This document shows positions 7,886 to 37,876 of a stretch of DNA of 37,876 nucleotides, piece by piece (the stretch's first letter is position 1; every line of letters begins with the position of its first letter). Under the pieces are notes generated by a model. That model was not told the DNA's origin and searched no databases. It was given only the letters and a program-made list of their open reading frames with translations. The DNA lies in the NCBI GenBank assembly GCA_014804785.1, contig JAAUZD010000041.1, positions 1 to 37,876 of the forward strand. The letters run 5' to 3'. A program made the translations under genes and the position numbers. Source of the stretch: Lachnospiraceae bacterium. GTDB lineage: Bacteria > Bacillota > Clostridia > Lachnospirales > Lachnospiraceae.

Positions 7886-8725
7886 TTATATTAAAATTTC
7901 ACCTTTAAAAACAGTTACAGCCGGTCCTGTCATGTACACAAGATTGGCTTCCCTGTCCCACTGGATCTGCAAATTTCCACCTAATAGTTTAACAGTAACC
8001 TGCTCCTTCGTCAAACCATTTAATACGCAGGCAACTGTGACAGCACATGCCCCGGTCCCGCAGGCAAGCGTTTCTCCGGTTCCTCTTTCCCATACACGCA
8101 TCTCTACATTTTCCTCATCCAGCACCTTTACAAATTCTGTGTTGATGCGCTTTGGGAAGCGTACATGATTTTCAAAAAAAGGACCTATCTTCTCAAGAGG
8201 AAGAGATGACACATCATCCATAAAGATTACTGCATGTGGATTGCCCATTGACACACATGTCATTTCATAGATTTTATCCTCCACCTCTATCCTTTCTCCA
8301 ATGACTTCATCTGCATCAGAAATGACCGGAATATCCGCTGACTTTAGTATCGGCGTTCCCATATTGACTTTTACAGTCGATACCTTTCCATCTTCCACAA
8401 ATAAGTCAAGATATTTGATTTTGCCACAGCTGATTACGCTGATGGAGGTTTTATCTGTCATTCCCTCATCATATACGAACTTTGCCACACAGCGGATTCC
8501 GTTGCCGCACATTTCGGCTCTGGAACCATCCATATTGTACATTTCCATCTCAAAATCAGCTTCCGTGGAAGGATTAATAAAAATGACTCCGTCTCCGCCA
8601 ATTCCGAAATGCCTGTCACTCAGGCGCTTTACGATTTCGGGCTTTTGCTCTTGGCAAATTTGCTCTTTGGCGCCATCTACGTAAATATAATCGTTGCCGC
8701 ATCCATGCATTTTCGTGAACTTCAT
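7886..8725 (-). CDS. dapF: Diaminopimelate epimerase
   Basis: A 279-residue two-domain epimerase that interconverts LL- and meso-diaminopimelate. Both catalytic cysteines are in their family motifs: C73 in [15 protein letters not shown] and C222 in [11 protein letters not shown]. The N terminus [18 protein letters not shown] is also typical. AGGAGG lies 8 nt before the ATG. It is the first gene of the dapF-dapL operon. The palindromic element A begins 57 nt upstream of the start, so the operon's promoter is either in this short gap, where I see no clear one, or beyond the element, which would then be part of the leader. Confidence 0.97.
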
Positions 8726-8781
8726 ATAATCATCCTCCTATCTTTCAGACAGTTTGGCTGTCTTGGTTTTCGATGTAGTCC

Positions 8782-9152
8782 GGCAAAGTCATTTTGAACA
8801 GGGGCAGTATTGTAGGGGCGGTTATTCCCCTGCGCCAGGCTGGGTACAAAGGATATCGGAACCTATGTACAGTGGTAAGAAGGGCTAAGTATCCCGTAGA
8901 AGGATGCATCCATGAGGACGCAAACGGCGTATTGCCCCATCCATGGGGCAAGTTACGCCTTCGGCACAATAAGCTGGCTCGCGAAGCGTGGCAGCGTTTG
9001 ATGACGTCACTGTCCGCCGATTGCTGGGTATCTATCGGGATACTAAGTCCTTCTAACCACTTCCCATAAGGCTCCGATATCCTTTGTACCCAGCCTGGCG
9101 CAGGGGAATAACCGCCCCCTACAATACTGCCCCTGTTCAAAATGACTTTGCC
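8782..9152. repeat. Long palindromic element A (371 bp)
   Basis: About 80 bp at each end are almost perfect inverted repeats, from GGCAAAGTCATTTTGAAC through GGTACAAAGGATATCGGA. The stem continues less perfectly through the core (8862-9071), with GTGGTAAGAAGGGCTAAGTA opposite TACTAAGTCCTTCTAACCAC. At the tip are two smaller hairpins: a palindrome centred on GCCCCATCCATGGGGC, and a second, altered hairpin between TTCGGC and GTCCGCCG. The core is homologous to the cores of elements B and C, but the outer arms are not. Reading frames inside it are the same short sequence on both strands and are not genes. It lies between dapF and element B. Confidence 0.93.
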
Positions 9153-9382
9153 TCATTCATATGAATAATATACCACATTTTTCCCCATATCATTATCACT
9201 TTCTCTGCTATACAGTGTGCAAAAAATGCTAAATTCCTCTCCGCGGGCTCTATGTCTATTCTTTTTATTCGAAAATCAAAAATTATATTCTGTCTTATTA
9301 CGCTTTTGAATCGCGTAAGGTGTGAAATATGAAAAGCAGCACTTATTTCACCGAAATTCCAGCGAGGGGATATCTCTTCCTA
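9153..9382. other. Intergenic DNA between palindromic elements A and B
   Basis: About 230 bp of AT-rich sequence with no convincing gene. It has a short inverted repeat TTACGC/GCGTAA near 9298-9318 and another, GGTGTGAAATA opposite TATTTCACC, near 9319-9352. On the minus strand TATATT/TATTAT near 9160-9175 could be a weak -10 for dapF, without a good -35. Confidence 0.4.
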
Positions 9383-9731
9383 GAAGAATCGTATTTTGCT
9401 CCTCTGGCGGTGGTTCTGCTGTGGGCAGGGCGGATGCTTTGGCGGAAGGAGCAGTGCATCTGTCTTAAGGCCTTATGGAAAGTGGTTAGAAGGACTTAGT
9501 ATCCCGATAGATTCCCAGCAATCGGCGGACAGGACGTCCGCCGAAGGCGTAACTTGACCCATGGATGGGTCAATACGCCGTTTGCGTCCTCATGGATGCG
9601 CCTATCTATGGGATACTTAGCCCTTCTTACCACTGCACATAGGACTTAAGATAGATGCACTGCTCCTTCCGCCAAAGCATCCGCCCTGCCCACAGCAGAA
9701 ACACCGCCAGAGGAGCAAAATACGATTCTTC
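9383..9731. repeat. Long palindromic element B (349 bp)
   Basis: The outer arms (about 88 bp each) pair almost perfectly, from GAAGAATCGTATTTTGCTCC inward to GGAGCAGTGCATCT, and are unrelated to the arms of element A. The core (9471-9643) is homologous to that of element A in the opposite orientation. It contains TGACCCATGGATGGGTCA and the hairpin CGGCGGAC/GTCCGCCG. It begins 6 nt after the stop codon of the transglutaminase-like gene, so on the minus strand it is transcribed as the 3' end of that operon or ends it. Confidence 0.93.
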
Positions 9732-9737
9732 CAACAC

Positions 9738-11282
9738 TCATCTCATCCTAACTGTATGTGTGACAAGGTATCTGTCTCCGGCAAGTTCTTCTATTTTTAG
9801 ATCCATTTCGCAGGAGGATGCCAAAACGGCTTCCATCGCATGATCCATGTATCCCTGCCTGTAGGCATCTGTCCGGTATGCTGTATCCAGTTGCTGTGCC
9901 AGCATCTGTCCTTCTATTACGTTGGAAAATTCATAGTTTCCTGTTCCCATTGCAGTAATTGTGGCATAGCAGCTATCGTAATAGTCTGAAAGGCTGTATA
10001 GGATATCTGCCTCCGACATGCCCACTTCTTCGATGCTTCTTAGATTGTTCTCCCATAGTCTCATCTGGTCGGCAGAAGGTTCCTGATTCCGGTAAAGCTG
10101 TCCGTTACAGGGCGGAAGGTAAACGGCAAGTTCCTGCCTTACGTGGGTATCTGCATAGTCCTGATCTGTCTTGTTAAAGTAATCATACTTTCCGCCTTCT
10201 GTATCGTCCCATGTGGCATCCACATTGTAATATCCGTCCTCCAGCGCAACAATATTCCATGCATGGTTTTCCCCTGCATATCCAGTGCAGTAATAGCAGG
10301 GAATTCCCAACTGCTGTAACAGATATTGAAATGCCCTTGCATATCCGGCGCAAACCGTCTGACCGTTCACCAATGCACCATAGGCGCTCTGGTTCATTTC
10401 TGCCCTCAAGTTGTAGGATAACCGGTCAAGGAGTGTATCATGAATGAACCTTTCTTTCTCATAATCACTTCCGAACTGATTCGCTTGATTTAAAATCGCA
10501 TTTGCATTTTCATTGAAAACAGCTTTTGCCTGTTCCAGATTCTGTGCCGTCCGGTTAAATCTCAGATCAATCTCCACACACTGTCCGTCTCTTCTGTACT
10601 TGCAATAATAAACTGTTTCCATCCAAAAAAGTTCAGGATGGTCATTGTAAACTGCAGCAAAAATATTTCTGAGCTGTGATGCAGAAATCGCTTCTACCGG
10701 TGCAAATGACGCATTGAGCGCATTGGCATTTGCATAAATCTGCCGGTAAAGATGCCGTCCTTTTTCATCCAGCATCCCATAATAGGGATAAAAGACAGCG
10801 TCAAAAATAAGACCGTCTCCTGTATCGCCAACACTAAGCTGATTTTCCAATGTTCTGGCTGCATCGTCTTCGATCTGCTCTCTTTGATCCTGAACCCGCT
10901 GATAGCCGTTTCTGCCCGATACGCTCTCCGGTATAAGTACATCCGACTGTTCCGGCGAAATATATTCGGGGTTGATATTTTCAATCAATCCCGCCGCCTC
11001 TTCCTCCGCAGTTCCTTCCGGTCGTTCATCATATTCCTGCTCAAATGCATCCACGTGCTGATTTTGCCCCTCTGCTGCGTCATAGGGTGTTTCCGCCCCG
11101 TAACGGGTATCTAAATCATTCTGATCTACCGCCACGGTGATTTCCGTCTGATGCCTGTCCGGATAAAGAAATTCTGCTATCGCGTCCGTAACATCCGGTC
11201 TGAAAGCACACAAAATGACCAGGGCTGAAAACAATGAAAATAAAAATAATAGTAAAATACCTATTCTCTTTAAAATCTTCAT
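9738..11282 (-). CDS. Membrane-anchored transglutaminase-like protein
   Basis: A 514-residue protein with one N-terminal membrane segment (about 6-27, IGILLLFLFSLFSALVILCAF), so most of it lies outside the cell. Residues 40-150 are acidic and low in hydrophobic residues, probably a linker. The transglutaminase-like core spans about 270-375 with the expected papain-type triad: C311 in NGQTVCAGYARAFQYLL, H340 in GENHAWNIV and D355 in YYNVDATWDD. Such extracellular domains act as proteases or peptide-crosslinking enzymes; the substrate is unknown. It starts 9 nt downstream of recQ, and the two are surely co-transcribed, though no functional link is obvious. Element B follows its stop directly. 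Confidence 0.9.
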   Translation of the reverse strand: MKILKRIGILLLFLFSLFSALVILCAFRPDVTDAIAEFLYPDRHQTEITVAVDQNDLDTRYGAETPYDAAEGQNQHVDAFEQEYDERPEGTAEEEAAGLIENINPEYISPEQSDVLIPESVSGRNGYQRVQDQREQIEDDAARTLENQLSVGDTGDGLIFDAVFYPYYGMLDEKGRHLYRQIYANANALNASFAPVEAISASQLRNIFAAVYNDHPELFWMETVYYCKYRRDGQCVEIDLRFNRTAQNLEQAKAVFNENANAILNQANQFGSDYEKERFIHDTLLDRLSYNLRAEMNQSAYGALVNGQTVCAGYARAFQYLLQQLGIPCYYCTGYAGENHAWNIVALEDGYYNVDATWDDTEGGKYDYFNKTDQDYADTHVRQELAVYLPPCNGQLYRNQEPSADQMRLWENNLRSIEEVGMSEADILYSLSDYYDSCYATITAMGTGNYEFSNVIEGQMLAQQLDTAYRTDAYRQGYMDHAMEAVLASSCEMDLKIEELAGDRYLVTHTVRMR

Positions 11283-37576: not shown

Positions 37577-37876
37577 CGGGGATAGGGGACAGCGGCGGCT
37601 TGGATAAAATGGCTGCGGGGCGGTGTGCTTCCGGTTGCAGGACTATGGCGGAAAATCGGCAATTTCACTTACGGAATGGTGGAATGTCAGGGGAAAATCG
37701 CCATGGATGGCGATTTTAGGAGCCACAAGGCAGGATGCCGTCTGGCTCCGACCCGTCCGTCTTGTAATACCTACATCCATTCCGTTAGTGAAATCCGATT
37801 TGGAGACTAGACCTGCAACCGGAAGCACACCGCCCCGCAGCCATTTTATCCAAGCCGCCGCTGTCCCCTATCCCCG
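37577..37876. repeat. Long palindromic element D (300 bp, reaches window edge)
   Basis: The first 80 or so bases, from CGGGGATAGGGGACAGCGGC to CTTCCGGTTGCAGG, are inverted at the right end of the window, which ends exactly with CCCCTATCCCCG. The inner stem includes CACTTACGGAATGG opposite CCATTCCGTTAGTG. The tip has a palindrome centred on CGCCATGGATGGCG (CCATCCATGG on the minus strand) within a 24-bp perfect stem (37694-37717), followed by a second hairpin GGAGCCA/TGGCTCC (37719-37749). The arms and core share no extended identity with A-C, only the architecture and the central motif. It may extend past the window. Confidence 0.88.

Follow-up and report, generated by a model that had tools for sequence, protein, structure and literature searches.

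The long palindromes in this Lachnospiraceae DNA are copies of TwoAYGGAY (Rfam RF01731). They are best described, in our judgment, as dispersed repeats in which a CsrA-type RNA tip is carried on self-correcting palindromic arms, and we consider this reading probable; the tip would bind CsrA and the copies would have spread within genomes. The RNA motif itself was already known. The mirrored evolution of its arms, the fusion origin of one copy, and the family-wide co-occurrence with csrA are new here.

Four TwoAYGGAY elements in the window

The window (the whole stretch of 37,876 nucleotides that was analyzed) contains four elements, A to D (Table 1). All four match the full Rfam model (positions 1-168), with scores of 82.5-109.6 bits against a gathering cut-off of 43. 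The original prediction had found no described family that matches, and had named alignment to a known Rfam family as evidence against itself; such an alignment is what is observed, and the statement is incorrect. Three copies had been noted there, and D is a fourth. B, C, and D each have two AYGGAY-like hairpin loops, and A has one.

The arms of A (82 and 84 nt) are complementary at 81 of 84 aligned positions, and those of B (90 and 91 nt) at 87 of 91. Folded as RNA, B has an energy of -277 kcal/mol (z = -28.9), and none of 100 shuffled sequences is equally stable. With this near-complete pairing, the long inverted repeats predicted for A and B are real, and their cores lie in opposite orientations, as predicted. 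The common core proposed for C is also present. Long perfect arms are missing from C, and the mismatches in its long stem come from its origin as a fusion (see below).

A and B together occupy the gap between a gene with a Transglut_core domain and dapF (Pfam assignments). In the spacer between them, a candidate promoter-like box, TGTGGTATATTA, is located upstream of A and dapF and is kept in relatives, as judged by eye. By eye, A also seems to be situated within the leader of dapF, in sense orientation and downstream of this conserved box. An orthologue of A is present in the relative G009, with arm changes that are not mirrored, and the orthologous place in G009 is without B. In the core of A the first tip hairpin is enlarged, and the second has the only standard GGA loop left. 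Cores with an enlarged first tip hairpin form a subfamily (A, C5:43078 in G009, and C37:2449 in G035), and the standard GGA loop of this hairpin is lost in A and the G009 copies. The window also contains a T-box leader (RF00230, 106.7 bits) at 1903-2178 on the minus strand.

Table 1. Positions of the TwoAYGGAY elements and their parts in the window
Feature	Position	Strand	Remarks
Element A, whole hairpin	8782..9152	minus	arms 8782-8863 and 9069-9152
Element A core, RF01731	8864..9068	minus	86.9 bits
A-B spacer	9153..9382	minus	contains the candidate promoter-like box (judged by eye)
Element B, whole hairpin	9383..9731	plus	stop codon of the minus-strand gene 9738-11282 is 6 bp away
Element B core, RF01731	9474..9641	plus	109.6 bits
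B first GGA loop, AGGAC	9531..9535	plus	sequence and loop conservation across copies
B second GGA loop, ATGGAT	9561..9566	plus	sequence and loop conservation across copies
Element C core, RF01731	31560..31726	minus	88.3 bits; hybrid of two elements that G009 retains as a divergent pair
Element D, whole hairpin, second subtype	37577..37876	plus	contig end falls inside the right arm
Element D core, RF01731	37646..37808	plus	82.5 bits

Copy number and distribution

The genome of the window (G000) contains 39 RF01731 copies found with the covariance model, in subtypes of 28 and 11. In 38 of the 39, the 168-position model covers the tip of a longer palindrome, 188-478 nt in length. Thirty-seven copies continue past the Rfam model into outer arms no shorter than 30 bp (median arm 81 bp over all 39); the other two are C and an N-rich copy near a contig end.

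A match is found in 17 of 37 congeneric genomes (16 above cut-off), with 1-11 copies in 11 of them; the remaining 20 genomes have 0 copies. Six genomes (G000, G005, G009, G020, G028, and G035) have from at least 34 to at least 53 copies, the high counts being lower bounds since the best 55 candidates per genome were scored. Across the bacterial family, a match is present in 39 of 250 genomes (39 of 249 genera), with scoring limited to the best 10 candidates of each genome. At 16 of 26 loci from other genera, the outer arms reach 30 bp or more, and at distances above 20 bp these arms have 294 Watson-Crick, 5 G-U, and 6 A-C pairs. Contigs break in or beside the hairpins (the end of the window in D, the end of C8 and the start of C17 in G020, and the start of C9 in G007), and short-read genomes therefore probably under-count the copies.

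Pairing and mirrored evolution of the arms

Stem statistics were obtained for 109 of 120 parsed elements, from four genomes, that have a full core and arms of at least 25 bp. At distances above 20 bp from the core, the arms contain 6369 Watson-Crick, 73 G-U, 56 A-C, and 26 other pairs. The outer arms are thus 97.6% Watson-Crick, with no wobble bias. Helices selected as RNA should strongly favor G-U. The numbers of Watson-Crick, G-U, and A-C pairs are 1657, 17, and 28 in the type-1 long stem and 1413, 6, and 3 in its tip stems; the corresponding numbers for type 2 are 905, 2, and 1, and 749, 10, and 12. An excess of G-U is seen in two short helices that the predicted consensus folds contain (131 G-U, 26 A-C, and 162 other pairs in one, and 56, 5, and 18 in the other). 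Being poorly paired, they are taken for artefacts of fold prediction.

The arms of different copies are mostly dissimilar, and a relative in the same genome is found at E <1e-3 for 22 of 101 left arms of at least 45 bp. The left arm is G-rich, and the right arm together with about 30 nt past it is C-rich. Capture of the arms from elsewhere was rejected on the arm of B, which has no outside match in 5 genomes better than E 0.005 (24 bp, 92%).

The four arms were aligned for 22 hand-picked orthologous pairs, 16 of them close (G000/G009) and 6 more distant. The set excludes pairs of a type-1 with a type-2 element, pairs in which the core was replaced (C4_80282/C5_51714), and additional pairs from sites already represented. 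Gap-free columns were counted, since gap columns include plain differences in length at the outer ends. The close pairs have 73 mirrored substitutions (38 transitions and 35 transversions) compared to 34 single-arm ones (73/107), and the distant pairs have 135 (65 transitions and 70 transversions) compared to 13 (135/148). Three close pairs supply 42 of the 73, and 5 of the 16, that of A among them, have no mirrored substitution. Columns with old left/right differences (16), with three states (10), or with a crossed pattern (1) do not enter these ratios, which somewhat favor mirrored columns as the arm boundaries were set by pairing. Mirrored substitutions account for a share of 0.68 in the close group and 0.91 in the distant one, in which two elements each occur in two of the six pairs, as if single-arm changes turn mirrored over time. 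Transversions make up 105 of the 208 mirrored substitutions.

Insertions are mirrored as well. In a G020/G035 pair (arms of 90 and 133), one orthologue has about 43 nt inserted in each of its arms, whereas both arms of the other lack them, and about 62 nt are mirrored between two paralogues (arms of 94 and 156). The mirrored substitutions and insertions, with the absence of wobble bias, point to arm-to-arm copying of DNA. Mirrored changes that include insertions are what distinguishes a palindrome maintained by template switching, and they are found here, though not in every pair. In the core, 14 type-1 orthologous pairs show paired changes comprising 14 transitions and 1 transversion, and 14 one-sided changes. 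The core may therefore change by ordinary compensation, and the arms by copying.

Flipped, fused, and remodeled copies

At two sites, the core is inverted in place within the same arms and flanks. The site of element C is occupied in G009 by a divergent pair. The 3′ half of C is identical to one member of this pair (32/32), and its 5′ half corresponds to the other member inverted (31/32, compared to 21/32 for either alternative). Moreover, the right arm of C is the reverse complement of the left arm of the second G009 member. On these matches, C is a fusion of a divergent pair, which could have arisen through an inversion combined with a deletion, or else through a double template switch.

The left arm of another copy, C51:8432 in G000, starts like the first member of a G009 divergent pair and continues like the second, and a deletion probably joined the two. 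Near the junction, its right arm matches the new left arm and not its G009 orthologue. At a pair site in G007 (L093:1-100), there is a symmetric palindrome with one of the two tip hairpins, perhaps a truncated relic. Between C4:80282 in G000 and C5:51714 in G009, which occupy the same site, the outer arms are alike and the inner arm and core differ, which by eye would fit a nested insertion or replacement of the core.

The tip loops and csrA

Two AYGGAN/CAGGAN motifs are present in at least 98 of the 109 elements, a count that misses enlarged or N-containing tips. In the 66 type-1 cores of near-standard length, which leave out enlarged tips such as that of A, the loop bases are 0-8% variable, with one free position at 42%, and stem columns reach about 50%. 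A pair of GGA motifs in neighboring hairpin loops is a known form of docking site for one CsrA dimer.

Across the 250 genomes of the bacterial family, csrA is found in 38 of 39 genomes with the element, compared to 85 of 211 without it (Fisher p=1.6e-12); with the curated csrA cut-off, the numbers are 38 of 39 and 83 of 211. Within the genus, where csrA is nearly universal (33 of 37 genomes), there is no association (15 of 17 genomes with the element and 18 of 20 without). Two high-copy genomes, G005 and G035, have 34 and 53 copies (lower bounds) and no csrA match; they are 89% and 86% complete. The family-wide link may reflect shared motile lineages, and the elements behind it come from a strict search, limited to 10 scored candidates in each genome. 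Among the features expected for a CsrA-binding RNA, the conserved GGA hairpin loops are observed, and so is, across the family, the occurrence in CsrA-encoding genomes. In its treatment of TwoAYGGAY, the RMfam report proposed CsrA binding (PMC4333381). From the paired GGA loops, we infer that the tip, if transcribed in the Rfam sense, probably binds CsrA, as a decoy or a local regulator.

Arrangement and gene context

Neighboring elements less than 700 bp apart are divergent in 20 of 21 pairs, and those at 700-1500 bp in 3 of 3, within the stretches examined, of which some were chosen for their pairs. Among the family-wide matches listed, 5 of 6 pairs are divergent by eye. A flip that gives a tandem pair, followed by deletion between the direct repeats, would keep founding divergent pairs divergent.

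Genes were found on both sides of 94 of the 109 elements with a crude ORF caller. By these gene calls, 46 of the 94 elements are within 30 bp of a gene end, which is a 3′ end in 45 of the 46, and the placement at operon ends or upstream regions given in the original prediction is broadly right. The right end of the element is nearer to a gene end in 68 of 94 cases (p=1.7e-5). This bias comes from paired elements (32/36), whose left side faces the partner; among unpaired elements it is 36/58 (p=0.09). For paired elements, the nearer gene end is a 5′ end in 19 of 36. Orientation relative to the flanking genes is even, with both neighbors on the same strand in 30 of 94 and both on the opposite strand in 30 of 94.

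A promoter belonging to the element was dropped from consideration, as there is no promoter-like excess on the 5′ side of the 109 elements (46/109, compared to 41.4 in shuffles, and 51-55 on the other sides). An intrinsic terminator was likewise rejected. T-runs of at least 4 within 12 nt after the hairpin are found for 5/109 and 4/109 elements on the two strands, compared to 76/1090 controls. In the left flanks of the 109 elements, GTAAC occurs 11 times, compared to 0 in control stretches, and ATAAC 16 times, compared to 3. These motifs near the left end are possibly an old element end or a target.

Dispersal and loss

The best paralogues resemble each other at a level of 81-91% across 296-335 nt. 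The similarity stops at or near the arm ends in 3 of 4 comparisons. The copies have therefore probably once spread as hairpins. Some sites, such as those of B and of C8:11042, are filled in one species and empty in another (G009 in both cases). At two empty sites the letters of the arm ends are retained, which suggests loss and not insertion. The 37 own copies have no conserved termini beyond a weak first G. There is one candidate for a 3-bp target duplication (GTT), which could equally be a deletion microhomology, and the other occupied/empty sites show no consistent duplication.

No enzyme could be linked to the dispersal in a search of one recombinase type, Y1_Tnp. A Y1/RAYT transposase was rejected as the mobilizer, as the Y1 transposase is absent from G020, which has 43 copies, and the only match in G000 has an internal stop. 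Carriage by phages or plasmids was also set aside, with no match to the exact 34-nt core pattern in IMG/VR (exact matches only) and no megablast match of positions 8300-10300 of the window in PLSDB. The listed spacers of divergent pairs appear unrelated by eye, which argues against a composite transposon bounded by such pairs; the gene inside the 1.2-kb pair at C15 resembles, by eye, a trypsin-like protease and not a transposase. The idea that the palindromes survive because SbcCD was lost is unsupported: sbcD, the one gene searched here, has matches in 36 of 37 genus genomes (34 above cut-off), including all six high-copy ones.

Proposed mechanism and alternatives

Each intact copy has two arms that vary and, between them, a tip that is conserved. 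The tip consists of two small hairpins, with their GGA loops kept, on a stem with fixed mismatches; in the model that we favor, it would bind a CsrA dimer once transcribed, giving a decoy or local regulation. The arms would be a DNA palindrome and not mainly an RNA feature under base-pair selection. Polymerase or repair would copy one arm from the other, by template switching or by gene conversion within the palindrome, such that new mutations and insertions in one arm are erased or mirrored and the arms change yet remain complementary. The same copying would flip cores in place and fuse adjacent copies. Copies would spread through the genome in some lineages, and be lost by deletion. A more specific version, in which the self-correcting repeat seeds docking hairpins for CsrA dimers, as a distributed CsrB/RsmZ of Lachnospiraceae, and much of the outer-stem covariation in families of this type comes from copying of DNA arms and not from selection on RNA, is possible, and we put it forward tentatively.

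The elements could instead be purely RNA, either a CsrA-sequestering sRNA or a cis-regulatory one, with the long stem kept by compensatory mutation. Such an RNA would agree with the Cis-reg type of RF01731 in Rfam, the proposal of CsrA binding in the RMfam report, the conserved loops and the csrA co-occurrence, the predominance of transitions among paired core changes, and the close pairs that have no mirrored substitution. We regard it as unlikely, since neither the arms nor the long stem or tip stems have a marked excess of G-U over A-C, transversions, which do not arise by wobble paths, make up half of the mirrored changes in the arms, insertions of tens of nucleotides are mirrored, and there is no preferred orientation to the flanking genes. 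The discoverers, where they rate the motif, also considered it probably an RNA and probably not cis-regulatory (PMC2864571). The structured RNA suggested in the original prediction thus holds for the catalogued motif, with its conserved GGA loops and family-wide csrA co-occurrence, but not for the arms; the implicit step from long pairing to RNA is unsupported there, as the arm covariation has the signature of DNA copying. The Watson-Crick covariation of the long and tip stems, with A-C mismatches about as frequent as G-T, is expected if there is no strand-specific selection as RNA, and together with the fixed stem mismatches it would also suit a folded-DNA element, like an integron attC site or a hairpin origin, in which the tip is recognized as single-stranded DNA and the loops are kept for a DNA-binding protein. 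This is quite improbable, however, as the loops fit the motif of an RNA-binding protein, as given with the RMfam entry (PMC4333381), the elements track csrA, and no recombinase, among the one type searched, is linked to them.

A conventional non-autonomous DNA transposon (a MITE, REP/RAYT, or IS-end derivative), whose ends or hairpin are recognized by a transposase, would explain the copy numbers in G000 and its five high-copy congeners, the paralogues that share most of the hairpin up to their arm ends, and the occupied and empty sites between species. We find it rather doubtful, as arm ends differ between copies beyond the weak first G, target duplications are not consistent, the Y1 transposase is absent from one high-copy genome and interrupted by a stop in another, and the letters left at empty sites suggest loss. 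What stands of the predicted non-autonomous mobile element is the sharing of most of the hairpin among some dispersed paralogues; an enzyme, a conserved terminus, or a reliable target duplication did not emerge. The preference for 3′ gene ends could point to a transcription terminator, a boundary, or a stabilizer of mRNA 3′ ends, and a transcription boundary had indeed been among the options raised. But T-tracts are not found after the hairpins on either strand, the nearer gene end of paired elements is more often a 5′ end, and insertions at 3′ ends are also what purifying selection leaves. We therefore hold a role of this kind to be very unlikely.

Implications and comparison with known systems

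With these observations, an orphan Rfam entry can be put to the test. Binding of CsrA by the tip would give these bacteria a nucleic-acid CsrA antagonist or regulon whose kind, to our knowledge, is known only from other bacteria. If the arms copy each other, template switching in DNA can produce compensatory changes in stems whose lengths range from tens of bp to above 100 bp. Compensatory changes are the usual evidence for an RNA stem, and the reading of covariation in RNA discovery would be affected. Dozens of near-perfect palindromes, each about 300 bp long, also persist in genomes in which sbcD is retained, a natural system for the study of palindrome stability.

The elements agree with RF01731 TwoAYGGAY in their full-model scores above the cut-off and in the GGA hairpin loops. 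They differ in the long palindrome around the model, the dozens of copies, and the mirrored arm evolution; neither long arms nor repeat copies are mentioned where TwoAYGGAY is treated in PMC2864571, PMC11701678, PMC11661157, and PMC4333381. With the CsrA-sequestering RNAs, the elements share GGA in hairpin loops and the occurrence in CsrA-encoding genomes. CsrB/C and RsmX/Y/Z are each one sRNA with many GGA loops, whereas TwoAYGGAY, a putative CsrA binder, is scattered over dozens of intergenic sites and has two loops per copy. It is as CsrA-sequestering RNAs that CsrB/C and RsmX/Y/Z are named in the RMfam report (PMC4333381). The MITE-like repeats ERIC, RUP, and NEMIS are, like TwoAYGGAY, dispersed intergenic palindromes that can fold as RNA. 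These repeats keep conserved termini; in TwoAYGGAY, on the other hand, conservation is found at the tip and not at the termini.

The closest parallels for the arms are hairpins formed by template switching. Sections of PMC8794818 describe template switching as a maker of hairpins, and sections of PMC6649704 describe concerted change of the arms in mitochondrial palindromes. Mirrored multi-base changes, in-place inversions, and preserved pairing are common to those hairpins and to the elements described here. The precedents, in the parts of these reports that concern them, are RNA genes (rRNA and microRNA) and mitochondrial coding palindromes. In comparison, TwoAYGGAY is a multi-copy bacterial repeat, with arms mostly of 30-160 bp, that has been followed across orthologous copies.
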